A DNA stretch of 17,235 nucleotides from Diplocarpon mali (Eukaryota; Ascomycota; Leotiomycetes; Helotiales; Drepanopezizaceae), in contig JAENRP010000435.1 of assembly GCA_024741835.1 (NCBI GenBank), positions 5,764 through 22,998 of the forward strand. Reading direction: 5' to 3'. The notes below the pieces were generated by a model, which was not told the origin of the DNA, ran no database searches, and worked only from the letters and a program-made list of their open reading frames with translations. A program made the translations under genes and the position numbers. This document shows, piece by piece, positions 1 through 17,235 of the stretch. Each line of letters begins with the position of its first letter. Positions within the stretch are counted from its first letter, which is position 1.

Positions 1-113
1 TACGCTTTTCACCTATAGGCTAGGCCCAGGAGTTAGAAAAAGAAACTAGCAAAATAAACAAATAAGCTATAGAATCGCAAAAAAAAACAATTAAAATAGA
101 ACTAACCTAGGCG
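1..113. other. Left outer terminus, non-coding
   Basis: About 110 bp between the tip and the stop of ORF3. It starts TACGCTTTT and holds one 29-bp palindrome only 8 bp from the tip, then A-rich sequence with no recognisable gene. The matching right end has the same organisation. In fungal DNA transposons this is where transposase binding would be expected, but no such site is known to me here. Confidence 0.6.
8..36. repeat. 29-bp palindrome, left tip copy
   Basis: Consensus arms TTGACTCGCAGGC and GCCTGCGAGTCAA around CTA. This copy is non-coding, 8 bp from the element tip, and pairs with 17197-17225. Confidence 0.8.
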
Positions 114-318
114 TCAGTTTTCCTTAATTCTCTTTAAAGGATAAGGAAAACTATCATTAGATAATACTCTCTTTACCAAACGACTACTTCTTCTTATAGT
201 ATTGCTATTAGTATCTGATAAGATAGGTCTCAGTATAGTAAGAGCTTTAGTAGTTTAGGCAAATGCTAGTATACTTTAGCGGCTTCTACTAATAGGAAGA
301 GAGACTTATATAATAGCG

Positions 319-343
319 TTATTATTATTATTATTATTATTAT
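319..343. repeat. ATT trinucleotide microsatellite (left copy)
   Basis: About eight ATT units, coding an Asn tract in ORF3. The right copy has fewer units followed by a variant stretch, with compensating length, so the frame is kept. Confidence 0.85.
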
Positions 344-426
344 CCTTAAGGGAATTATCAATAATAGAGGAAAGGGAGGCAGGAGATTTTATAGACTCTA
401 CTTCCTTAGCCTTTCCCTTTGCCAGA

Positions 427-455
427 TCAAGTTGCGGGCCAGGCCTAGGAATTAT
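427..455. repeat. 29-bp palindrome in ORF3
   Basis: In phase with ORF3 (minus strand); inverted-repeat partner of 16783-16811. One arm is more degenerate than in other copies. Confidence 0.7.
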
Positions 456-1248
456 ATTAGGTATCTTTGCATAGGGTTTCTTAGTGCTATACTTCTTAAA
501 TAGAATCGTCTTATCAATTATATTATTAGCCTTAATATTATCGTTAGTGCCTTTTATCTTAGCTTAGGATTTATTATTATATAACTATAGTTCCAGTTAT
601 TATATTAGCTTTTAAATATTAGTAAAATTGTTAAAAAGTTCTTACTCGTATTTCTTTAAATATATTATCAATTATACTATATCCTTTAAGAATAACTCCT
701 TTATAGCTATTACTATTAATAGGTTATTCTATAATCTTCTACCTATAAGGGCCTTTAATAATAGACCGCCTTTCGTCATCCCAAGGGTTATATAGAACTT
801 TATAAAAGATTCTCCTACCGCACCTTATCTTACTATACTTAATCTCTTTATACTAAGTAAGTTAATAAGAAAATCTTCTAGGTTAGTGCCATTCTTAAGT
901 GAATTATTGCTAACAACTTCCGTATAGTTATTACTAATAGTTAAAAAACCGCCCTTTCTAGGTTCCTATTCTGAATTGAGATCAATAAATATACCTTATC
1001 TTATAAATACTAAGAATAGAGTAGTATTATTTAAAATGTATTCCTTTAAAACAATTTTCTTCTTAGTATTTAGCTCTTTTTATTATATAGCGCTTTGCGC
1101 TAGATTTAATAAGATCTATTAAGAGTTCTTAAAATAATAGAGTATAAGTATAGATAACTTATAAGACTTTTCCTATATAGTAAATTCTCTAGTCGATTAT
1201 TTTACAATAGGAATTATATAATAGTTAATAGTTTTATTATTAAAGGAG

Positions 1249-1277
1249 TTGACCTGCGAGCTAGGCCTAGGAGTCGA
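1249..1277. repeat. 29-bp palindrome in ORF3
   Basis: Well-kept copy, in phase with ORF3 (reads STPRPSSQV); inverted-repeat partner of 15961-15989. Confidence 0.85.
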
Positions 1278-2874
1278 TTTAATAAATCGCAAGTTGGCGT
1301 TAATCTTAATAGTAATAATTCTCAAATGATAATTAATGCTTATAAACTATATAAGCTTAGGATACGTTACTAACTTATATAAAGACTTATAATAAGTCAA
1401 TAGCGCATTAAGATATAGCCTATAGTATATTCTTAAAGTCTATTATATTAAACTATGCGTTATATTATAAAGAAATGCAAAAGGGGGCGAAAGTTTTTTA
1501 TTAGAATTCCGAAAATGATGCTAATACATTTCCAATTCCTCTTATGCTAATATTAAAAATGAATTCTTTCTATAATAGCCAAGGCTATATATGCGTATAG
1601 CGCTTAGAAAGGCACAGCTAAATAACTTAAGCATATTTAAAAAGCCTTTGCTATAAAATAATATAAAGTTATTAATAGTTAATATAGCATTATACTAAGC
1701 AGGGGTCTATGCGATATTATAGAATAATTTAAAGGCTTTAAGTGCTACTCTGAACTTAGAGAAGCCTAATAACATATCCTTCTTAACTTAGCTTGCCATT
1801 CTATTACCAGTAGCCATAATTATACGATTTCCTAAATATAATAGAAATAAAGTTAAGTCAAGAGTAGTATAAAATTTATAGATATTAGATAATACATCTT
1901 CGTTAGTAAGGCCTATTATTGCCAATCCATAGTACTGCGCATATTAGCATTTATAATATAGAGACCTGAGATGGATAGGTCTTATAATATATATTATATA
2001 ATCGGCGCAGGATGGTAGGAGGATAAAAAGGGCCATCTTCTGTATATAGAGATAGCGTATTGCTATAAGTACTGAATATACCTCATACTTGGGACTTGTT
2101 CCTAATATCTTATCTAGGAGAGCCCGCTTATAGTGCTTCCTCCTTTTGTTTTTAGGTCTTCCCTTAGGCCTATTCTTGTATTATCTCCCTTTAGTTTTAT
2201 ATTAGTGATTTACGCAAGGACCGATTTCTTAAGATTTCTATCCCTATATGACCTTATCGATCTTTTAGTTTGTAGATAAGAGACTAGCCTTTTTGAAAAA
2301 TACATCTTTAAAACACTTATAGCATTTTGATCAACTTTAAAAACCTTATCTTCAATCGCCTAATTACTTAGAACTATCGATTTTCATTTAGTAATTATTA
2401 ATAACCTTAGATTTTCCCTTTTCGGCTCTGCTTTAAAAACCCTTATTTTCTTCCTTAACTTTGAGATTTTTGGAATTTTCAGCTTCCTAATATGAAAAGT
2501 TTAGCAAACCTTATAATAGCAATCTCAAATAGCGGTAGTTTTAAATACTTAAGTAATATTAAGTATAAACTCCAATTAGAAGTGCCTCCTTAGAATCTTT
2601 AGAAATCCGAATCTGATAATTTAGCCGCCTTAGCTTAATAAAACTTTAAAAATTGCCTTAGAATCATCTTTAAAGACCCTTTTATTCTAAAGACTAATAG
2701 GAATTAGCCTAAAGGCTAAGAAGAATCTTAGATATAAACCTTATTTTAGAAATTAGTCCTTAATTAAGTAAACCTTATATTATTGCGATTAGTCGCAATG
2801 CTTCTATTAGCTATTTAGTACTTACTTAAAATCTTTTAGTAAACTCGGATTAAACTTTAAGTAGAATCCGGAAT

Positions 2875-2903
2875 TCTACTCCTAGGCCTAGCCTATAAGT
2901 AAG
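2875..2903. repeat. 29-bp palindrome in ORF3 N-part
   Basis: Reads LTYRLGLGV in the ORF3 frame. Its phase supports coding continuing upstream of the 2387 ATG. Confidence 0.8.
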
Positions 2904-2989
2904 AGGATAAAAAGATATCCTTAAATAATTTAAGGCTACTACTTACTTTTTTAATATTAATATTAGAAAATATTATAAATAATAATAAT

Positions 2990-5785
2990 TTTGAACTTTT
3001 TATTAACCCTTTATCTAAATCCTTTTAAACTCGTCTTAGTCACTTTAAGATTGACTTAGATTTTAAATATTCTTTAAGCCCTTTTAAATTTCGAAATACT
3101 CCTTTTAATAATCAATCTTATAATATTAAAGCTTTCCCTTTGCCCTTTATGGATTCTATTAACTTAGACGGTTAATATAAAATGATAATAGCTGCATTTA
3201 AGGCTATTACTAGTCACTTTTTCCTTCTTAGTTCTTCTAGCGCTCCTTACTTTATAAGCGCTAATATTACTAATTTCCTTAAGTAATATAAAGAAACTTA
3301 TTACAATTTTAATATTATATAAAAGGATATGATTTCTCGACTTCCTTACTATTATAATTATATAAGTAAGGATATTATTAAGTCCCTTTTTAAATAGAAA
3401 ACTCATAGTTTATAGGAACTCCTTATTAAGGCCTTTAAATCTAAATTTTATAAATTTAATAAATAGTAGATTTGCGATACCTTGGCTTTCTTAAAGGAAT
3501 TTGTTTTAGTCACTTATACTCTTAAGGAACTTAAGAACTACTATTAGACTTTTACTTATATATCAAATACCTTAATTAATTAGAAAATACTTAGTAAAGT
3601 TAAATAAGGCCGCCTTTTCTTACTTAGATTACCTATTAGCCTTTGAAATAAGATCATTAAGCATTTTAAAATCGATAAGCAAGACCTTATAACCTTTGCC
3701 TTATTTAAGGAATTCTTAGCCTTTGCTTTAAAATCAGATCTTAGTAAGAGAACTATTAATACTATAGAGTAGGAAAAAGCCCCTACTTCCTCTTATACTA
3801 AAGACCTTAAGAATCTAGTCTAAGAATACTCGAAAGCTTTAGAAGTTATAAAGGAGGCAAAGAAGAACCTAGTAGTTATACCTTTTACTCGCGGGCCTAA
3901 CCTAGGAGTAAGATTTAACCTTAGAATTAAGGAACTTAAGACTTAATTTGCAAAACTCTAAATCTAAAGCTTAGAAACTAGGATTAATAATCTTTTATAA
4001 GAAAAATAGTATATTCCTTAATTTGGTAATAGGCAAAACTCGGCCATTATAAGCTAATATAATAGTTCCTATTACTAGACTCTTACTTTTTATTATTCGG
4101 AATAACTAACTAATATAAGAATTTAACAGTTGACTGAAGAAGGAGAAATTAATTCTAATTAGCACTTTGCTAATATTAATACTATAAGGTACTAAGGGAA
4201 TAGTAATAGAAGACGACTAACCTACAACTTTTATAATAATAAAGAACCCAATTGCACTTTATATAAGTATTATAACAATTGCCCTCTTTTCTATCGTTTT
4301 ATTAATACTAGGGTCATATATATTAATAAGTATAGGATGCTTTGCATTAGAGATCTTAGGCTAAAAGCTATCCTTATTAAAAAGTATTAGAATTACTTAT
4401 AGTTATAGATTGTTCGAATGATAATATATAGTATAAAATAGGACGAGAATTTAGTTAAACGATAGCGTATTATAAATATAAATGCTAAAATTCCAACTTA
4501 TATATATATAGGTCTAATTAGCAACCTACTTAAGGGAGTTCTTAAGGACCTAGCTTCTGATTAAATAGCTATAGAAGTTAGAGGCATCTTTATCTTAGGA
4601 TAGGTTAATAATAATATATCTATTAATATTAATACTACTTTTATATCTAAAAAACCTTAGAATACTTAATATCCTTTTAGATCTACTACTCCTTTAATAC
4701 TAATAAAACTAGCTAAAGTCCAGAAATTAATACGTATAACTTAGGAATCTTAATATAAAGTCTAAATGCTAAAAGATACTTAATAATCTGGAATTATAAT
4801 AGATAAGGATAAAGCTAATATAGTAGATAAATTAATTAAAGATATAATAGACGAAGATGGCTTTAAGCTTAAAGATTAAGAAGTTGAAGTTATTACGCAG
4901 ACCCTTGACTTTAAGCGAAAGAGATAAATATTAAAATAGGAAAAATTCGTTAATAAATATACTAGTTCAATTGCAATAGAGAAAGCTATAGAGAATATTA
5001 TAGCTTAGCAAATTAACCTTATATTTAAAGACCTATTTGATTTAATTAAACACTTTAATAAAGTGCTAAAAAAGCATATCCCAATTGCTTTTAAAGATTT
5101 GAATAATAATAAGGAAATGGAAATTGTAATGCGAAAGAACTTTAAAAAGCACTTAGCTTTAATCAAATGTCTTTAGATTATAAAAGATAAAGGAACCTAA
5201 AGGTATTATAATATTATAATAATAGCTTTAATATCTTAGAATATTAATTGAAATTGTTTAGCAGTTGCGATAAAAAGCCTTATTATTATTTGTTTAATAA
5301 AAGAATTAGTTAAAGCAAAGGCTTTGATCAATTATAGTTTAAAAGTTAATGCGATAATTAGAAAAGTGGTAGAAATAGCTAGATTGACAATTATTAGCAA
5401 TCGACTCCTTATTTATTTAATTGTTTTTAGATTGAAATACAATTTTAATAGATAGGTAAAGAATGTAAAGGTTAGAGTTAGAAGAATTGTTAATTATATT
5501 GACTTTTTAATAATAAAGAATTCTTCGAATGATATTCTTTTAAAAATGCCCTTTATTTTAAAATCTTAGCTAATATTTAATTATCCTAGAGATAATCTTA
5601 TAAAAGCTAGTCTTTAAAATATGGATCGATCTTTAAAAGGATAAATAGTTATTATAAGAGATATAGCTGAATTCTAGAATAAGGTTTTAAGAAACGATTA
5701 GCTAGTATAAGGGCTAGGCTTAATGCTAGTAAAAGAAGGCACTTAGCGAGGAGTTATAGCAAAAGAAAGGTAAGTTTGCCGATTT
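2990..5785 (+). pseudogene. gag: Gypsy gag-protease frame (RIP-inactivated)
   Basis: A single plus-strand frame, interrupted by many TAA/TAG and by TGA at 3644 and 5249. The first looks like a former Trp (P-I-S-L-W-N-K context). The N-terminal two-thirds reads as a fungal Ty3/Gypsy capsid region, with segments such as NLDGQYKMIIAAFKAITSHF near 3161 and LPISLWNKIIKHFKIDKQDL near 3630. The C-terminal part is an aspartic protease: ALINYS at 5321-5338 sits where ALID(S/C)G is expected, so the catalytic Asp has become Asn, and DILLKMPF at 5531-5554 matches the flap-distal ILLGMPF motif. A palindrome lies in phase at 3884 (FTRGPNLGV). The first visible ATG is 3149, but earlier codons look coding. 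The frame ends at TGA 5786-5788. Confidence 0.8.
3884..3912. repeat. 29-bp palindrome in gag
   Basis: Reads FTRGPNLGV in the gag frame, between the capsid-like part and the C-terminal region. Confidence 0.85.
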
Positions 5786-5961
5786 TGAATAATAGCGATT
5801 TAACTTACGGTCTTAAACTAAGAGTCAAATCTGGAATTTTGAAAAATAGTATAATTAATGTTTTATTAGCTTAACAATTAAGAAAAAAGAAAAATAAGGT
5901 AGAGAAGAGAGTTTGTTTTATAAATTTCTATAATTTACTAATCATTTTAAAAAACTTAAAA

Positions 5962-5990
5962 ACCACTTATAGGCTGGACCTGCGAGTGAA
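5962..5990. repeat. 29-bp palindrome in pol N-part
   Basis: Reads TTYRLDLRV in the pol frame, upstream of reverse transcriptase. Confidence 0.75.
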
Positions 5991-7928
5991 AAATAATAAA
6001 ATTACTAATAATATTTCTATTTATATACTTTAAATTAACGACTTAAAAAATCTTTTATTTATTTTTAAAAAGGAAAATTCGGACCATTTTATAAGATTTA
6101 ATAAAAAAGGAAAGAAGTAGAAAAGTATAGTACTAGCTAATATTCGAACTATATATAAAAGTAAGGTCGATAAAGTATAACTAGTAGATTAGGGAATCTC
6201 TAATAGCTTAAAGCCTAAAGGACTAGATAATTAGTTTAAATAAGATAAGAAGCTTCGACCTTTAAAGCTAAGTAGCAAATTCGATAAGTTTATTATAGGC
6301 AGATTTTCTAATAAACCTATTGGATATCAGCTAATAAAAGAACGTTTTAATATGCTAAAAATTAGAGATAACTTAATAGAGTAAGAATGCGAATTACTTT
6401 ATAAAACCTTAATAAATCAAGAGAATACTTTAGCTTTTAACTAGACGGAACTTAGCTAGATTTGAAAGGAAGTTATACCTTATATTAAGATTAAGATAAT
6501 ACCTTATAAAGCTTAGTAAGAGAAAACATTTGGGGTCTTTAAAGCTCTTTAAGAAAAGGTAATCGAAATATTAAAGGATAGGCTAAAGTAAGGTATTCTT
6601 AAGTTCTGTAATAGCCCTTATAGGAATAAATAGTTCTTAGTTGCTAAAAAAGAAAAGGGAACTTATAAACTAATAATAGTAGTAGTAGAGATGAACTGAG
6701 TAACTATTAAAGATGCTAACATTCCTTCGAATATAGATGAGTTCTTAAATGAATTCGTAGGATTAACCTATAGCTCTCTTATTGACTTCTTCTTTAAATA
6801 TAATTAATTCATTCTTAATATTAAATCGAGAGATATAATAGTAATTTAAACCCCTCTTAAGCTACTTCGGATAATAAGATTACCTTAAGAGGTTATAAAT
6901 TCGATTGCTTAATTTATCTAAGTAATCTATAAGATACTAATAGATTATATATCTAATATTGCGCTCCTTTATATAAATAATATAAGAGTAAAAGGATTAA
7001 GATTATTCTACAATTATAAAGAAGTTCTTCTTAGCATATAACGATTTATAATAGAATACATTTAGAACCTGGATTAGGTACTTATATAATTTAAAAGGGT
7101 AGGAGTAACAGTTAGTCCGAAGTTATAATACTATTTTCTATTAATAGAAATTGTTAATTTTATTACTAATTCTAATTGCCGAAGTCCTTAGAGGGCTAAA
7201 GTACTTAAAATCGATAAATAGAAGAGGTATAATAATATAGCAGAAGCTTGCGCGTTTATTAGCGTTATAGTATACTATCGCATTTGGATTAAGGATTTTG
7301 CTAAAAAGGCAGTACCTATTTACGCCTTATTTTAGAAAGGGGCTGAGTTTTAGTAAGAGGAACCTTAAATAGAGGCTATAAAATAACTGAAGCAAGCGTT
7401 ACTTAAAGCGCTATATCTAATTAAAATAGACTATAGAGCTAATGCTAGGCCAATTATACTAATAGTTGACGCAAGCTTAATTAGATAAGGTGCTATCTTT
7501 TAATAAGCTAATAGCTAATAGAAAAGACATCTAGCTCGCTTTAAAAGTGGTCTTTAGAATCTAGTAGAAATAAAGTATAATACTATTAAGTAGGAATGCA
7601 AAGGCGCTTTAAAGGTAATGAAAAAGATAAAAAGCGACCTTTACAGCACTTACTTTATCTTTGAAACTAATGCTAAAGTGCTAGTAGAATAATTGAATAG
7701 AGCTATAAGTGACCTATTAAGAGCCTTGCTAATAAAATAGATTACTTAAATAAGATTAATAGACTTTGAAGTCAAATATATTTTAAGAATGAAAAATACT
7801 ACTGCTAACGGCCTTTTAAGAAGAACTCGGCCCTATTCCTTTAATTTAATTAAAGAAGATAAAATAGATATTGATAAGTAGGTAGAAAATAAAGTTAATT
7901 ATCTATTAATATATTACCTTAAAGGGAT

Positions 7929-7957
7929 ATAACTTGCGAGCCTGGCTTGTAAGTTAA
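7929..7957. repeat. 29-bp palindrome between RNase H and integrase
   Basis: The one intragenic copy not in the usual codon phase relative to pol. It lacks the central CTAG, so it would not create a stop in this phase. Confidence 0.7.
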
Positions 7958-9480
7958 ATAAGAGAATTTTATTACTTAATTACTTAAGTGACTCTAAAGA
8001 AATCGCGAAATTTTTAATTACACTTAAACGACTAAAGACAGTTGCTCTTAAGGATTTTTAAAAATTCAAAGCTAAAGCTTTGATTTATTTAATAAGAGGA
8101 AGATAATTGTTTAAAAGGAGTAATAACTCATTTCTTATATAATTCTACTTAGATAATGAAAAACTAAAGGCTAAGGCTATCTAGGATATTTATAAGGAAA
8201 CTGGCTACTAAGGAGCTAAGTCTACCTACTATTAACTCTTAAGGAAATTCTTTTAAAAGGGTTCTTTTAAGGATTGCAAAGCCTTTATAAAAAGTTGCAT
8301 CCTTTATTAGAAATAAAAACCTAATTATAAAGAGAATCTCCTATTCTTAACTTAGCTAATAGGCCTTTTTTATAAAGTTAGTCTTAATATTATATAAGTA
8401 CTAATAACCGAAAATAGGATTATATATTTTATTCTAATAAAGGAAGACTTATTAAGATAGCTTAAAGGGTGACCTTTGAGATCTGCTAACTTTGAATCTA
8501 TTATAAAGTTCCTTTAAGAAGACGTAGTCTATTGCTATAGACTTTTTAGCAGACTAACTATTAATAGAAGCTTTAAAAATAAATAAGTAGTTAAAGCTTT
8601 TTTGCGAAAATATAGCATTAAATAGGTTTAAATCTTAATATATAACTCGAAAGCTAATAGAGTAGTAGAGCGAGGATATTACGATATTTTTAATAGACTA
8701 TCTAAAGTCACTTGTAGAAGATTTAAGAATTAGATAAAATACTTTTATAAAATACTCTTTGCTTATTAAATGATAATTTATAAACCGACTAGAGTTATAC
8801 TATTTTTCCTTATTTATAGTAGAGAGGTATAGCTCCTTTTTAAATCCTAATAGCCTATTTGGAGATTATTCGATTATAGTTAAATTCAGAACCGTTCTAA
8901 TTTGCTTATAATAAGATGCTAATAACTTAAGCTTTAAGATATAAATATAAAGGAAATCATTTTATAAAAGAAATAATATTAGGAAAAAGCTAAGGAAGTA
9001 TAGGCTGCTTTTAAAGTACTTAAAACGCATCTTATTTAAAAAGATGATCTTATCTTAATTTACGATATTATAAGAAGTATTAATATATTAGTAGATATTA
9101 AACTTAACTATTAATAGCTTGGTCTATTTAAGGTTAAGTCTAAGTAGAAAGAAAAAGGATACTATTCTCTTTAAGAACTTAATAGAGTTGATATTAAAGG
9201 AACCTTTGCAGCTAATCGACTAAAGCGCTTTTACTAATGTAATTAGACCTTATTCCTTTTAAAAGACGAATTAGAAATTGATATAACCTTTGAATCTTTT
9301 ATAAGAACTAATAGTAATATAAGCGATTTTAAACCCTTAGATAAAGACTAAGATTTTTCCAACTTAACTTATAAGCTAGTCTTATAAGTAAAGAATATTA
9401 AAATACCTAACTAATTGCAACCTTAAGTTATTATTCCTAAAATATTTAAAGAATGCAAATAGGAATATTAAACGATTTCC

Positions 9481-9783
9481 TAGCCTATTAATTATCTTAC
9501 CTTTCTCTAATCCTTATTTTTACATTTTTAGCAAAGTCGCCTCTTTTATTATTTAAGATATAGATCTTTTAAGATCACTTTAAATTCTTGCCTACTTTGA
9601 CTTATTTTATATTCTTAATATTAGCCTTTAATTATAGCATTCCTATTACTTTCCTTAAATAATAAATAAAAAGTCCAATTTCCTTAATATATATATAGTA
9701 AACCTATTATAGCTTATATACCCTTTTAATTCTTATACCCTATTAAACTTTCTTATTTATACTTCTTATCTTTTATAAGTAAT
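9481..9783. other. Spacer between pol and ORF1, pyrimidine-rich
   Basis: About 300 bp of C/T-rich plus strand (runs such as TTACCTTTCTC and CTTTCTTATTTATACTTC) leading to the ORF1 ATG. Pyrimidine-rich tracts upstream of the start are common in fungal promoters, and the ORF2 upstream region has the same character. A TATATATATA stretch lies near 9690. No gene, LTR or RNA gene is recognised here. Confidence 0.45.
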
Positions 9784-10626
9784 ATGCCTTTAAAGAACTT
9801 ATAAATGGTTTTATCTATTATAATAAGGGATAAATAAGCATTAGTTATAAACTTCTCTTAGGATAGTAGAGCTATTATATTATTAAAGAACTTTAAATCG
9901 ACCTATGCAGTCTTAGGAGATATAGAGTAATAAAAACTCCTTTTAGCTTATGCGAATGCTATTAATAACCTTTTAACCTAAGTGGCCTTTGGAATTCTCT
10001 AATTTAACAACTTCTTAATTAAAGAATTAAGATTAAAGGGAATCTTTAAAGAGGAATTCTTAGCTAATATAGATTAATATATAACCTTAGCTAATACTTT
10101 TAAAATGGATTAAGATAAAAGGGAAGAATCTATTTAATAATTAGATAATTTAACTACTAATAAGAGAGGACTCCTATTTCATTTACGCTTTTTAATAAAT
10201 ATTGATTCTAATAATAGAAGGCGAGTATTATTAAAAATTCTTAAGGAAAATACTCTTATAGCTAGAGCTATTCAGATTCTCAATTTCTTTATTATTTAAA
10301 AAGGAGTAATAAAATTCTAAGGCAATCGAATTCGCAGTCGCAGATTTATAAGCTTATCTAATGCAATACTTATAGCTACTAATAAGGCTATAAAAAGATC
10401 AAATTAGGCTATAGATATTACCCTACTTAATAGTACTATTATTAATATACTAGGGCTTTACGCTTCTGCTTATAGTTTGCTTATTTTAAAAGAGAACTAG
10501 ACTCTTATACTAAGGTTTAAATAAGATTTCTTTAATAATAAAGAAGGGAATTAGTTATTTATAATTAAGCTTGCTTTAAAATTCGCTTCTTAATCTAAAG
10601 ATATAATAAGTATTAAACTATATAAT

Positions 10627-10655
10627 TTGACTCGCGGTCCTAGACTAGGAGTTAG
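10627..10655. repeat. 29-bp palindrome in ORF1
   Basis: Reads LTRGPRLGV in the ORF1 frame. Confidence 0.88.
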
Positions 10656-12012
10656 AAATAAGAATTTTAAAATTAGACCTAACTTGCCTTTTATTAAAAT
10701 AATTCTAAAAACTGCTGTTAAATAAACTGCTTAAACGCTTAACGTAGCCTCTTTGGAATTTTCGGAATCTTTAAGAGACTTTCCTTTAATTAAACGACTA
10801 ATTTTAACTTAACCTTTAAAAAGGATAGATCGTTCGATAGCCACTTTAGCTAATTTGCAATTTAAAACTAAAGGATTGCGCGCCTATTTAGACTCCTTCC
10901 TTAATAACTTAAAAAAGCTAGTTCTTAACTTCTTTATATTTATATACAACTACTTTAAAAACGATAATATAAGAGACGACCTTATTCCTACTACTTTAAA
11001 GATAACTAAAAGAGCTATTAGATAGATTTAATAGCTTATCTTAAACGAGTTTGCCCTTATAGATATTGTTTGATTCTTTAATAATTATAAAAGTTAAGAA
11101 CCTAGTCTTTCAAATGCTAAGCAAGACTATTTTATCTTATAAGAAAGAGAATATAAAAAGGAATCTATTAATTAAGATATTTGTAATTATAGCAATATGC
11201 CTTAATCGGTTATTCTTAACCTTAAGCTTAAAGAATAATATAATATTTAAGTATCCTTTATAATGAAAACTCGCTTTTAATAGTATCTTCCTAGCGTAGG
11301 AATCGAAGGGAAAAGACTTTGCGACCTTTATATTCGCTCTCTTTTAATTTACTATAGTCTTAATTATAAAGGATTTGATATTAACGAAACTATTAAACAC
11401 TTCGAACTTCTTTATATAGTAGAAGATATTAATCTTTTTCTAATCTACTTTAATAATCAATTCTTTATCTCTTTAAAGATATGTAAATCTAATCTATTAA
11501 TAATAGAAGCATCTTTAAATACTATAAAATTTAAGGCTAATCCTAAAGCCTTAAAAGCATTAGAGCCAATTAAATAGAACAATTCCTTTTTATTGATATT
11601 ATTAAGTAATAAATAGCAGGAGGAAATAGAGGAAGAAGGGTTAATTATAATGCTTAAACCCTTTAGATACCGCTTCTTAATCGACAATTTTACTACTAAT
11701 AATAGTACTTTTATAGATATATTCCTTTTTATTATAAGATAAGAAGCAGAGATATATTTTTATCACTTCTACCCTATAGATAGCGCGACCTCTATACCTT
11801 CTTATTTTCTTTATAATATAATATTCAGTCTTACTTAATAAGTCCTTCGAATGTACTATAGACTCTACCTTTTAGCTATAATAGTAAGAAGTAAAGGAAC
11901 CTATTAGCTTATAGCCTACCTTAAACCTCCTTAATTGATTGGCCTTAGTTTTTATAATTAAGTTGTTTTAATAAAGAGAGATATAAGTGCTACTAATAAA
12001 GAAATTCCGATT

Positions 12013-12041
12013 TTCACTTGCAGTCCTAGCCTGCAAGTCAA
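12013..12041. repeat. 29-bp palindrome in ORF1, near-perfect
   Basis: Arms TTCACTTGCAGTC and GCCTGCAAGTCAA around CTA, among the best-preserved copies. Reads FTCSPSLQV in the ORF1 frame. Confidence 0.9.
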
Positions 12042-12897
12042 TTTTATTAAATAGTAAGTCTTAGATTATTAGATCCTATCGATCGAATAAGGGCTAGCTT
12101 TTGGAAGCTTTAATAAATAGGTCGGCTCTTAATCGAATATAAAACTTACTTTATTTGCAAAGAAGATAAGTCGATAGACTTCTTAAGTACTTAGTTTAAA
12201 ATCTCAATTAGCTTAAATGATTATAAAATAGAAGCAAAAGGAGATCTTACAACCTATTATTAATAATAGCAATCCAATTATAGTAATAATAAAATAGGAA
12301 TACTTTCTTAAAATGCTTTTAGACAATTCTTATAGGACTAGTGGTTTTATAGCCTTTTATAATAACTATATAGCTATCTGCGATAAGAATACCTTAGAAA
12401 ATAAGACTCGAATCTTTAATTTTGTCTTTTCAATTTCTACTTTAAAGCAATCTCTAGTACCTTAATAGATTAATGCAAGTAGAACTACTACACCTTTTAA
12501 GGTAGCTTTTTATCTTAAGAACTATAGCAACCTCTTTAAAGCTATTATTAGTCGATGCTTTTAGATAGATCTATCGGTTATAATTAAAGTATAAGAGTTG
12601 TTTCTTTTTAATAAAGATAAATTGAAAATCCACTTTATAGAATATAATTAGAAGCTCTTTAACGCCTTTATTAAGGCTTAGACAAATATTATAAATACTA
12701 AGTCGCTTCTTTATAAACTTAAGTCTTAGAAATAATATAATAAAGTAAATGCTATCTAAGAGCCTAATGCACTAATTGATAAAGGTATTATTATAAGAAA
12801 ATTCGGAAAAGAGATAAACTAAGACGCTAGTATAGTATTAGACCCTGATTTAGAAACTAATCCTCTATTTTTACCCTTAAGCTTAAAAACGCTAAGA

Positions 12898-12926
12898 CTG
12901 ACTCGCGAGCCTAGCCTATAAGTAAG
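12898..12926. repeat. 29-bp palindrome in ORF1 C-part
   Basis: Reads LTREPSL-(stop/Q)-V in the ORF1 frame. Confidence 0.85.
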
Positions 12927-13176
12927 GTTAGACTCGGCTGGCTTAAGCCTATAAGATAGTTCGGATAAACCTCGGTTACCAAATCTAAGGGTACTAATAG
13001 AAGATCCTTTAAGAGAAGTCCCTAAAGTTAAGAAATCGCTGAGAAATAAGAACCAATATAAGAGAAGAAGACTCTAAAGTGATAATAGAACTAATAATTG
13101 AGTCGACTTAAACTTAGAGAATTAAGTCTACCTCCCCTTTGAAAACCATTTAGAGAGATTGCGAATTAGAAGTTGA

Positions 13177-13659
13177 ATTTTTTTAAGATTACTTACTTTC
13201 TATATACTAGCACCTCTTTATTCTTTATTTATTATTCTATTTTATATATATTCTTTACTTTACTTTTTTCTTTATATAATCTATCCTTTGATTATTTCCT
13301 TTATATATAACTTTTTAACGCTTACCTTTGAAATGTCATCCTTACCTTTGATAATTATCATTTACTAATTATAGGTCTTTATATAAGTCATACCCTACTT
13401 TTATTCCTACTCCTAGCCTCTTTATGCCTACTTTTCCTTTGTATACTAGCGCGATTCCAAACTCTATAAATAAGCCTCTTTTTATACTACGATTTTACTT
13501 TTTTTACTTTTTCTATAACCCTACTAGACCTATAATACTAGCACCAACTACTATTATCTTTCTATTATTAATCTTTTCTAGTATAGGCCTCCTATATAGT
13601 TAATCTTTCTTAAATAATCATCTCTTTATTTAAAGCTACCTCCTGCTAACTAATTTATT
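13177..13659. promoter_or_regulatory. ORF1-ORF2 intergenic region, probable ORF2 promoter
   Basis: About 480 bp without a recognisable gene. The plus strand is pyrimidine-rich, as expected of a fungal promoter (for example TTTACTTTTTTTACTTTTTC near 13485). A TATAAATA sequence is at 13465-13472, roughly 190 bp before the ORF2 start, but in such AT-rich DNA this could be chance. CTTACCTTTGA occurs twice 20 bp apart (13321 and 13341), a small imperfect tandem duplication. Assignment as promoter rests on position and composition only. Confidence 0.4.
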
Positions 13660-14544
13660 ATAGCACTACTAAGCTCAAATAAGAAAGCTATACCTAAGAA
13701 GAGTATGTTAGTTATTGCCTTAGGCAGTAAGTTAATGAATACTACTAGTAATAAGCTAATGTTAAAAGGTGGCTTTTTATAGGAAGGCAAGTTATTAAGA
13801 TTATTAGAAGATGTGGTAAGCACTTATAGAACGTTAGGTAAGATAGAATAATAGGTATTCTTAAACTTATTTATTAAAGTATTAAACTATAGAATCTCTA
13901 TAGTTAAAGAAGGATTTTTAGGCTTTGATGATTTTCTTAAGAATAAGCTTAAGACAAAGGGAATCGATTATGAAAAATTTCTATAGGAATATTAGAGGTA
14001 TGCTAATTTAGTTGATCTGTTTTAGAAGAATCGAGATAAGAAAAATGAGTGTATGAAAAGATTATTATAATTTATAGGTAGCACTTATAGTATACTTTTT
14101 CAAATACACTTTTTAACTAATATTACTACTAATAACGCCCTGCGGAGGCTTAGCAAAATTTTTGAAATATACTAACTAATAGCAAAGGCTATATAGGTAT
14201 TGAATCATTTTACTATTTAAGAGGGTATGAAAAAGCTATAGGGAAATAGTGCGCGAGGTAGAAAATTTATAGGTTTCTTAAGTACTATTATACACTTAGC
14301 CATTTAGATAATGAAAGATACTCTATTATAGTACGATAATTTAGCACTTTTAGATCAAACTATTCTAAATACCCTTAGCCTATAATAGTCTTAATATAGT
14401 TTACTTATTATAAAAGATAAGATGATATATTTAGCTAAGTATACTATAAACTACTTTAATAATAAAATAGAAAGATAGGAATTTGTTATACCTACTATCT
14501 TAAAGTTATTACTAATAGTAGCGGAATCGACAAGTGAGCCTAAA

Positions 14545-14573
14545 TTGACTTATAGGCCCGGCCTACGGGTAGA
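14545..14573. repeat. 29-bp palindrome in ORF2
   Basis: Reads LTYRPGLRV in the ORF2 frame. Confidence 0.85.
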
Positions 14574-14730
14574 AGTACTACGTAAGGAGGATATTCCTAA
14601 GCCAGAGGTGCTTATAATACCTAGAATTTAAATAGCTGACTATTGCGATTATTAATTATTAAACTTAGACGAGTTTGATTCACTATCCCTAGAGATGCTT
14701 TAAACACTTAGAATACTAGTAGTAAAGAAG

Positions 14731-14759
14731 TTGACTCGTAAGCCTAGCCTATAGGTTAT
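14731..14759. repeat. 29-bp palindrome in ORF2
   Basis: Reads LTRKPSL-(stop/Q)-V in the ORF2 frame, only 158 bp after the previous copy. Confidence 0.85.
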
Positions 14760-15960
14760 CTTATATAATAATATAGACTTTAAAGATGATCTAATAAATA
14801 AAGAGAATAACCCTATCACTAATGTGATAGAAATTTTTAATAATATTAAAAAGGATATATCTAATATTATATAAACCTTTTCTAAAGACTTATAAAAATT
14901 TGTTTTAAAATTCTATAAGTTAATAATAAAGCGTTTGAAAAAGGAAGGTTAGGGAGAAGTTTTGCTAGTATAAGAAGCAATAGCAAGAGCTGTTAAATAA
15001 ATTATAAAGCTACAATAAGACGAGTTTTCTATAGATAATATTATATATTTCTTTATTAAGTATAAGAAATCGAAGGGCGCCTACTATATCCTTAAAGAAA
15101 AGCTAGAAAATAGTATAACAATTATCTTTATAAAGTGCTATGAAGTTTCCCTTAATATTAAGATAATACTTTAATATGGCGATAGATTTAAGATTATAGT
15201 GATACTAGAGATAAAGATACAATTAAGCAAATTTATAATAGAGATATTCGAAGACTTTAGTTTCGAAAAATTTTATACTTTTTATAAATGCTAATATGCG
15301 TAGTATTATAGATTAGTAACGATAGGCCTTACTAACGAAGATGTATTATCTAATATTTATAAATTTTACACCGCTCCTAACCTGACCTTGTTTTTATTAT
15401 ATCTAAGAAATTATACAATTATAGCTACTGGCAATAGAAGGGCTAATTAAATTAAAAAAGATATATCGTTAGGTTTCTTTAAGTTTAGAGTAGCACCTAA
15501 GGCCCTTAAATTGTTTTATAATATCGCTTGGGCCCTTGCTTAGTATAAGACTATACTAACTAAGGATACCTTAATATCGCTTTGTATTAAAGGTTTCTTA
15601 AAGATGCTTAAGTTATTAAGTTGTGCATTCTTAAGCACTATGCGCACGCATAGTACTAGTAACTGTAGAAAGAATTCCTTTTTAATATTAGTATAAGAAG
15701 AGTTATAAATATACTAATATCATTTCCGGACTTTTAATAAAAGGCCTTCTCCTCCTTCTACCTTTTTCTATAATATGACTTATAGCTTGATATAGTAGAC
15801 CTTAAGGATATACTATAGTCTGTATCTTAATGCTCTATTAACTTATCATAATTCTTTATATAAGCTAGTAGCGTATCCTAAGCTTATATAGTTTATAGGC
15901 ATTAACTACTATTTGCGAATTATTTCTATTAAGATTGACGCTAACTCGAGATTTGTAAGA

Positions 15961-15989
15961 TTGACTCTTAGGCCTAGCTCGCAGGTCAA
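15961..15989. repeat. 29-bp palindrome in ORF2 tail
   Basis: Reads LTLRPSSQV in the ORF2 frame; inverted-repeat partner of 1249-1277. Confidence 0.85.
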
Positions 15990-16782
15990 TTCTCTTAATA
16001 GTAGAAATATTGACTATTATATGATCCCTATTGCTAAACAATCGACTAGAGAATTTACTATATAGGAAAAGTCTTATAAGTTATCTATACTTATATCCTA
16101 TCGTCTTAAGAACTCTTAATAGATCTTACTAAATCTGGCATAGAGCGCAGCTTAATAGAAAGAATTAAATACTAAGGATAGAATAATTCTAAAGGAGTAT
16201 ATTTCTAATAAGACTACTCTATTCTTAGTATTTATAAGATAAGGCACCTTTATTGACCTGGACTCTAATAAAGAACCTAGAAAGGGTGGTTTTCTTACTA
16301 TTAGTAATAACTATATAGAAGTTATTAATAATAAGTCACTTGAGAATAGCGCTGACTTAAAAGAATTTATTATCGATTCTATTTATATAAAGAAACTAAG
16401 CATAGCAAGATAGAGTATTGCTAGAGAATCCTTAGCTAAGTTTTATATAATACTTAGTATAATAAAAGGTAGTCTACTATTAGACGCTCTTATAGGAAGA
16501 CGATTATAGAATAACCTATTAATAGTAATGATTATAAAGGATTTGTTTATAAAAGATATGTCTTAGCTAATAGCATATCTAAAGAAGTATAAATAAGAAC
16601 TTTTTAAAGATTTTGCTAATACTTAAAAGCTGGTTTAATAACTAAAGCTATAGTTATATAGTAATAAGTCTTAGACAAAGACTAAAGATATAGATAATAA
16701 TATCGAAGTTGATAACCTAATTAATAAGACGATACTTCTCGAGAAGTATAGCACTAAAAAGCCTTATATAAAAACCCTTGAT

Positions 16783-16811
16783 ACGACTCCTAGGCCTAGC
16801 TTGCAACTTGA
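16783..16811. repeat. 29-bp palindrome in ORF2 tail
   Basis: Reads TTPRPSLQL in the ORF2 frame; partner of 427-455. Confidence 0.8.
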
Positions 16812-16894
16812 TCTAGCAAAGGGCAAGGCTAAGGAGGTAGTATCTATAGAATCTCCTACCTCCTCCTTCTCTATTACTGATAATTCCCTTAAGG

Positions 16895-16913
16895 ATAATA
16901 ATAATAATAATAA
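16895..16913. repeat. AAT trinucleotide microsatellite (right copy)
   Basis: AAT units coding an Asn tract in the ORF2 C-terminal region; counterpart of 319-343 in the inverted repeat. Confidence 0.8.
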
Positions 16914-17124
16914 CGATAATACTATTATATAAGTCTCTCTTCCTATTAGTAGAAGCCGCTAAAGTATACTAGTATCTGCCTAAACTACTAAAGCTCCTGC
17001 TATACTAAGACCTATCTTATTAGATACTAATAGTAATACTATAAGAAGAAGTGGTCGTTTGGCAAAGAGAGTATTATCTGGTAATAGTTCTCCTTAACCC
17101 TTAAAGAGAACTAAGGAAAATTGA

Positions 17125-17235
17125 TATTTAAGTTGGTACTATTTTTAATTGTTTTTAGCGATATAGCTTGTTTATTTGTTTTGCTAATTTTGTTTTCTGA
17201 CTCCTAGGCCTGGCCCGTAGGTAAAAAGCGTATAA
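17125..17235. other. Right outer terminus, non-coding
   Basis: Counterpart of 1-113, about five bases shorter. It holds the terminal palindrome (17197) ending a few bases before the tip AAAAGCGTA. The last three bases of the window (TAA) lie beyond the matched repeat and may be flank. Confidence 0.55.
17197..17225. repeat. 29-bp palindrome, right tip copy
   Basis: Non-coding copy next to the right tip; partner of 8-36. Confidence 0.8.

Follow-up and report, generated by a model that had tools for sequence, protein, structure and literature searches.

Results

The stretch analysed here (the window) comprises 17,235 nucleotides of the 49.4-Mb Diplocarpon mali assembly GCA_024741835.1, from position 5764 to position 22998 of contig JAENRP010000435.1 (C435); its right edge is the end of the contig, and the upstream contig bases 1–5763 are all N. 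The window is a giant Ty3-type long terminal repeat (LTR) retrotransposon, mutated by repeat-induced point mutation (RIP), that abuts part of an inverted second copy. Its LTR is followed by a leader, gag, pol and two paralogous open reading frames (ORFs), denoted ORF A and ORF B, and by a 3′ tail. Dispersed over these parts is a short palindrome, which is found mostly in one codon phase and is shared with Copia retrotransposons elsewhere in the genome.

Palindrome copies in the window

An earlier note on this DNA had reported a dispersed 29-bp palindrome in 15 copies at 12 loci. The palindrome is real: 17 places match the 29-mer of the note at 18 or more positions, 15 at 19 or more and 12 at 20 or more, compared with a mean of 0.05 places at 18 or more (largest 1) and none at 20 or more in 40 first-order Markov shuffles. 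The 29-mer at three or fewer mismatches is absent from the window, and the best copy, at 12013, matches it at 25 positions. The count needed revision. Sites 8, 427 and 1249 repeat 17197, 16783 and 15961 in inverted orientation, and a site at 9364, weak in the window and clearer in locus L052, was added, which yields 14 independent loci.

Twelve of the sites in the Ty3 element are coding and two are noncoding (2875, upstream of gag as read, and 17197, after ORF B). With frames that we assigned from readings with TAA/TAG allowed, ACT falls as a codon in 11 of these 12, and only 7929, in pol, departs from this phase; the common phase claimed for 10 of 11 loci is thus borne out. The palindromes reported at the element tips, 8 and 17197, turned out to be a single 3′-tail site seen in opposed copies, and ~250-bp LTRs bound the other copies of the element.

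Features of the window (positions in the window; peptides are given as read in phase)
Feature	Position	Strand	Remarks
3′ part of inverted second copy	1..1952	-	complement of ~15282-17235; other copies have only the LTR here
Palindrome, 17197 tail site in inverted copy	8..36	-	
Palindrome, 16783 site in inverted copy	427..455	-	
Palindrome, 15961 site in inverted copy	1249..1277	-	
5′ LTR, ~250 bp	1953..2206	+	both ends of C138 and C1; solo copy in L032
Palindrome, 5′ leader upstream of gag as read	2875..2903	+	20/29; kept in 67%-identical relatives L065 and L075
gag-like ORF, RIP-mutated	3152..5248	+	assigned by position and reading
Palindrome in gag, in phase	3884..3912	+	FTRGPNLGV
pol, RIP-mutated	5686..9480	+	Pfam RNase H, integrase H2C2
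Palindrome before reverse transcriptase, in phase	5800..5828	+	LTYGLKLRV
Palindrome before reverse transcriptase, in phase	5962..5990	+	TTYRLDLRV
Palindrome between RNase H and integrase	7929..7957	+	sole off-phase site
Degraded palindrome, pol C-terminus, in phase	9364..9392	+	clearer in L052
ORF A, ~1,105 aa	9784..13110	+	match P0005, Diplocarpon coronariae
Palindrome in ORF A, in phase	10627..10655	+	homologous to 14545
Palindrome in ORF A, in phase	12013..12041	+	homologous to 15961; 25/29
Palindrome in ORF A, in phase	12898..12926	+	homologous to 16783
ORF B, ~1,140 aa, paralogue of ORF A	13693..17106	+	matches P0001-P0004
Palindrome in ORF B, in phase	14545..14573	+	homologous to 10627
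Palindrome in ORF B, in phase	14731..14759	+	
Palindrome in ORF B, in phase	15961..15989	+	homologous to 12013
Palindrome in ORF B, in phase	16783..16811	+	homologous to 12898
Palindrome in 3′ tail, after ORF B end	17197..17225	+	

Consensus and genome-wide distribution

Less mutated copies approach GACTC(C/G)CGGGCCNGGCCCG(C/G)GAGTC, reading (L/T)T(P/R)GPGP(R/G)V. The conserved core is 25 bp long, with the majority form GACTCCCGGGCCNGGCCCGCGAGTN, and is flanked by a weak AATTY...RAWTT tendency with weak symmetry to ~35 bp. In these less mutated copies the DNA is near GACTC(G/C)CGGGCCNGGCCCGCGAGTC, and the peptides found in them and in Diplocarpon coronariae proteins are mostly LTRGPGPRV or TPGPGPRL/TPGPGSRV; the palindromes of the window are therefore degraded versions.

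In the host genome, one pattern yielded 94 matches at up to three mismatches, and a perfectly palindromic pattern yielded 157 places at the same threshold. The C-C form gave 301 exact matches (157+144) and, at up to one mismatch, 503+492 strand matches, which we count as at least 503 places because symmetric forms may be counted on both strands. Reversed-pattern controls gave 0 in every genome search.

The same sequence occurs in unrelated types of element. Thirty loci from the 94-match pattern and 13 of 15 loci from the perfect-palindrome pattern align to the Ty3 element; the remaining two loci (L055 and L057) are of Copia type. All of 20 places, chosen for diversity (19 among the matches listed at up to one mismatch, one from the perfect-palindrome pattern), are in repeated families: 12 belong to a single Copia-like tail, the Copia identity of which was read from RNase H words, four to Copia linkers, two to the leader of a Ty3 relative and two to an unassigned family. 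Six host kinase loci, a small sample of 12.4 kb, contained no match above 19/25 and no RIP signature. A further repeated family with two palindromes, of unassigned transposon type, is seen at L079 (239 and 362, minus strand) and L074.

Reading phase and position relative to domains

With the three A/B pairs counted once and three Copia loci included, 11 of 12 loci share the phase (P = 4.7e-5 against an expectation of 1/3, P = 0.003 against 1/2); the tally is confined to sites of established coding and so leaves out L074/L079 and what follows RNase H in the second Copia family. Seven palindromes occur in readings in which Pfam recognised domains, and all seven are outside the domains. Copia elements carry the palindrome in the interval from gag to the protease-like domain and downstream of the integrase SH3 domain; the palindromes of the second Copia family precede the integrase region as read, in a piece in which Pfam found no domain.

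The earlier note had attributed the common phase to stops in the other two phases, such that only in-phase insertions would be tolerated. Such stops are present in the RIP-degraded consensus. In the GC-rich form, however, one alternative phase is fully open and only the third has a stop (TGA). The bias is thus not forced by stops in that form, and it also points to peptide selection or descent.

Outside the coding sites, the tails carry the palindrome without a fixed phase. In the first Copia tail 4 of 12 copies are in the RNase H phase, as by chance. In the second Copia family the palindromes that follow RNase H are spaced by 66 and 61 (L057) and by 61 and 64 (L042), one of the four values being divisible by 3.

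Tandem arrays in Copia linkers

The number of palindromes in the Copia linkers varies. Sixteen copies of the linker between integrase and reverse transcriptase (RT) contain two (seven copies), three (eight) or four units (one) at spacings of 45, 48 or 54, and all 26 spacings are divisible by 3. The second Copia array consists of 8 or 10 units at spacings of 39, 48 or 90; in the two copies 16 of 16 spacings are divisible by 3, one weak 21/25 match beyond each array being excluded. This variable 8- or 10-unit in-frame array in a Copia-like polyprotein (L057 155–540, L040 374–846) is a coding minisatellite.

Conservation and symmetry

The palindrome is retained in diverged copies, that is, in relatives 67–77% identical, with the proviso that all loci for 7929, and some for 12013 and 12898, were fetched by motif match, which biases these sites. 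At the palindrome places common to ORF A and ORF B, 17, 17 and 19 of 25 bases match in one less mutated copy, compared with 11–20 of 45 in the flanks. Across 29 sites there is little variation at most arm positions; C and G are both found at position 6 and, to a lesser degree, at position 20, and the centre base and the right edge vary freely. The four-fold third bases in the arms of 20 coding sites are narrow (ACN T18 C2; GGN G7 T3 and C7 A5; CCN G10 A2), and the third bases of the centre CCN and the edge GTN vary. This pattern speaks for the DNA itself having been conserved or homogenised.

The sites show dyad symmetry, with 79.7% of arm cells paired as against 21–42% when the arms are slid. 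Three of five examples fold better than their shuffles, namely L049 (z −5.65, antisense strand), window site 12013 (z −4.26) and L053 (z −3.49).

The interior of the pol site, positions 7938–7940, reads GAG/AAG in 23 and GGT/AGT in seven of 30 distinct copies (window included; 35 rows before same-place duplicates were dropped), and the two types are scattered on the flank tree. Recurrent conversion at this place was considered and set aside: five changes on the transversion tree versus 6.4 in shuffles (P 0.13), with 1–5 changes in other columns, are uninformative.

Architecture of the host element

The RIP signature of the window is strong (CA 0.32x, TG 0.44x, TpA/ApT 1.41). No ORF of at least 100 aa is listed for it under table 11, and long coherent frames appear once TAA/TAG are read as former glutamine codons. 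In the C138 and C1 copies the ~250-bp sequence of window positions 1953–2206 stands at either end of a unit with the order leader-gag-pol-ORF A-ORF B-tail. A ~244-bp solo copy with a 5-bp target duplication lies inside ORF A of another copy (L032 2306–2559). This sequence is therefore the LTR. In other copies the 3′ LTR lies 200–300 bp downstream of 17235, and the element length is ~15.8 kb (coordinates summed). The inverted arms 82–1956 and 15282–17156 are 80% complementary; a terminal inverted repeat transposon was nevertheless rejected because the arms belong to an opposed partial copy and LTRs bound the other copies.

As in Ty3/gypsy elements, direct LTRs enclose an RNase H followed by an H2C2 integrase, and this domain order is a mark of Ty3. 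The pol domains were recognised by Pfam (PF17919, PF17917 and PF17921; RNase H, integrase H2C2), the RT itself being without a Pfam match in the RIP-mutated reading; there was likewise no Pfam match in gag or in the piece before the RT. The pol piece had no homologue at E≤1e-3 among 7,997 scored candidates. Unlike usual Ty3/gypsy elements, this one has a length of ~15.8 kb and two additional paralogous ORFs of ~1,100 aa (9784–17106). ORF A and ORF B share 35% identity across 1,064 positions (P0005 versus P0001). The homologues found for them are five proteins, all from Diplocarpon coronariae (Leotiomycetes), with ~7,990 candidates scored per search, a result that would itself point to a Diplocarpon as the probable host. 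No Pfam family matched ORF A or ORF B, and structure prediction was unusable (mean pLDDT, the predicted local distance difference test score, 31). All 42 scored ORF A copies (of 623 candidates) contain at least 32 in-frame stops.

Discussion

Origin and maintenance of the palindrome

The account to which we lean, tentatively and with somewhat less than even confidence, is that an old palindromic coding repeat has spread among LTR retrotransposons, has been tolerated in joints and tails and has been filtered for one phase. A 25-base sequence at non-homologous places of Ty3 and Copia elements appears to have been copied between them, convergence being implausible. In a Diplocarpon-like fungus, a GC-rich, dyad-symmetric sequence would have come to occupy LTR retrotransposons that are unrelated to one another, moving between elements perhaps by insertion, ectopic conversion or template switching in reverse transcription, and would have survived where extra DNA harms least, namely at domain joints and ORF ends, in the leader and in tails. 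Coding copies would have been kept mostly in the phase that gives the proline/glycine-rich linker (L/T)T(P/R)GPGP(R/G)V, such that linker tolerance and phase selection together may explain where the palindrome survived. In the Copia linkers it may have multiplied further by frame-preserving tandem duplication together with its spacer. The palindrome would otherwise travel with its host element and would be old at the Ty3 sites. A bolder version, which we consider unlikely, makes it a nuclear eukaryotic class of mobile coding palindrome, resident in retrotransposons and able to jump from one superfamily to another (Ty3 and Copia), which forms the joint between modules, as a frame-safe spacer that encodes nearly the same linker peptide in either orientation.

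Several observations weigh against the account of a tolerated, phase-filtered repeat. If translated, the palindromes after RNase H in the second Copia family would be off, in and in phase (L057) and off, in and off phase (L042). The variation in Copia unit number looks like ordinary tandem duplication that includes the spacer, and the 16 linker copies were picked for at least one exact unit, so that unit-free copies would be missed. No palindrome-free row was found at the 16 of 17 window places that could be aligned (2–34 rows each; site 8 had no rows). Three palindromes stand at homologous places in ORF A and ORF B, and such positional retention at 35% identity is more easily squared with a function that is maintained than with a passenger that is tolerated. 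Where ORF A and ORF B have the same residue, the third base agrees in 7/13 cases in palindromes versus 99/225 elsewhere, no clear excess, in a comparison for which the aligner misplaced the third site. Covariation of the arms is absent (79.7% paired versus 79.4% shuffled), pair 6–20 is mismatched in 23 of 29 sites, and two of the five folded examples, L066 (z −1.46) and window site 15961 (z −0.14), do no better than shuffles. Target-site duplication was undetected: summed flank repeats were 39 versus 32.4 in shuffles (P 0.26), and the 18 non-tandem sites gave P 0.55. Finally, the sites were recognised by consensus, and arm conservation is partly ascertainment.

Some of these points would suit a linker peptide with a function of its own, perhaps as a hinge or in the processing of the polyprotein, with selection acting on (L/T)T(P/R)GPGP(R/G)V and the palindrome a by-product of the common descent of the coding unit. 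Its single phase and proline/glycine-rich peptide, its sites at three junctions (gag/protease-like domain, integrase SH3/RT and RNase H/H2C2), and its retention in ORF A and ORF B speak for this explanation, as does the lack of a clear synonymous excess between the two ORFs. We nevertheless regard it as doubtful: the RNase H–integrase site, where cleavage would be expected, is the one off phase, the same sequence is also found in the leader and tails, and the range of four-fold third bases over the 20 coding sites is narrow within the arms but free at the centre and edge. The near-invariance of the half-sites, in coding and other positions alike, would rather be expected of a cis-acting DNA or RNA site, a dimeric binding site or RNA hairpin needed along LTR elements, with the phase following from tolerance; the three examples that fold better than shuffles are consistent with it. 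Yet the arms do not covary, a mismatch at pair 6–20 is the rule, the remaining two examples fold no better than shuffles, and such a site alone does not predict a single codon phase, which makes this explanation improbable as well.

A recent, still active insertion of the Rickettsia type into fungal genes could account for the common phase and the dispersal, and insertion was part of the logic proposed in the earlier note. We consider it very unlikely. No empty or polymorphic Ty3 site is found among the aligned copies, three sites are common to paralogues of 35% identity, the check for target duplications suggested by the note found none, the 12.4 kb around six host kinase genes contained no copy and 20 of 20 sampled copies are in repeats. 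An artefact of RIP or of chance in AT-rich DNA might be suspected in a window so strongly RIP-mutated; it was rejected, almost with certainty, by the reversed-pattern and shuffle controls, the former giving 0, and the palindrome is clearer in the less mutated copies.

Comparison with known palindromic repeats

The coding palindromes of Rickettsia and Wolbachia lie in frame in unrelated ORFs, typically in non-structured segments (PMC2996958, PMC10969869), and the repeat described here resembles them in being palindromic and in occupying unrelated ORFs in one frame (11 of 12 loci, Ty3 and Copia). This part of the Rickettsia-like logic of the earlier note stands, namely a dyad sequence in unrelated ORFs, mostly in one phase and outside detected domains; insertion is not supported by the copies aligned. 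The fungal core is 25 bp long, as against ~150 bp in the Rickettsia palindromic elements, and it is eukaryotic; the coding copies seen lie in retrotransposon ORFs, whereas theirs are in host metabolic genes. Judging from these likenesses, the fungal repeat may work like Rickettsia palindromic elements, but we do not file it as one. PARCEL repeats are tandem coding repeats with dyad symmetry, linked to mobile elements in some taxa (PMC2996958). The Copia arrays are likewise tandem coding dyads, but PARCEL is a 25-residue amphipathic repeat, whereas here proline/glycine-rich units of 13–18 residues occupy Copia polyprotein linkers and the palindrome is also found in tails. The GC clusters of yeast mitochondria are short GC-rich palindromes dispersed in AT-rich DNA, with constrained stems (PMC4478555). 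They differ in showing presence/absence polymorphism and target nucleotides, neither of which was seen here, where the Copia linkers vary only in tandem number and the repeat belongs to LTR elements of large contigs. The palindromic microsatellites of fungal mitochondria and the palindromic site adjoining the LTR of fungal GalEa elements have different sequences. Among the literature matches listed, in a search whose coverage excluded most subscription journals, there was no report of such a repeat in fungal retrotransposons, and 'palindrom' occurs 0 times in the main texts of papers on two Diplocarpon genomes.

Coding palindromes have been proposed as a source of new protein segments, the cases being bacterial, archaeal (one archaeon) and the sporadic PARCEL repeats (PMC2996958). 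Hundreds of frame-keeping copies across unrelated retrotransposons would offer a setting in which to study the passage of such a sequence from one coding region to another and the reasons why its phase is retained.

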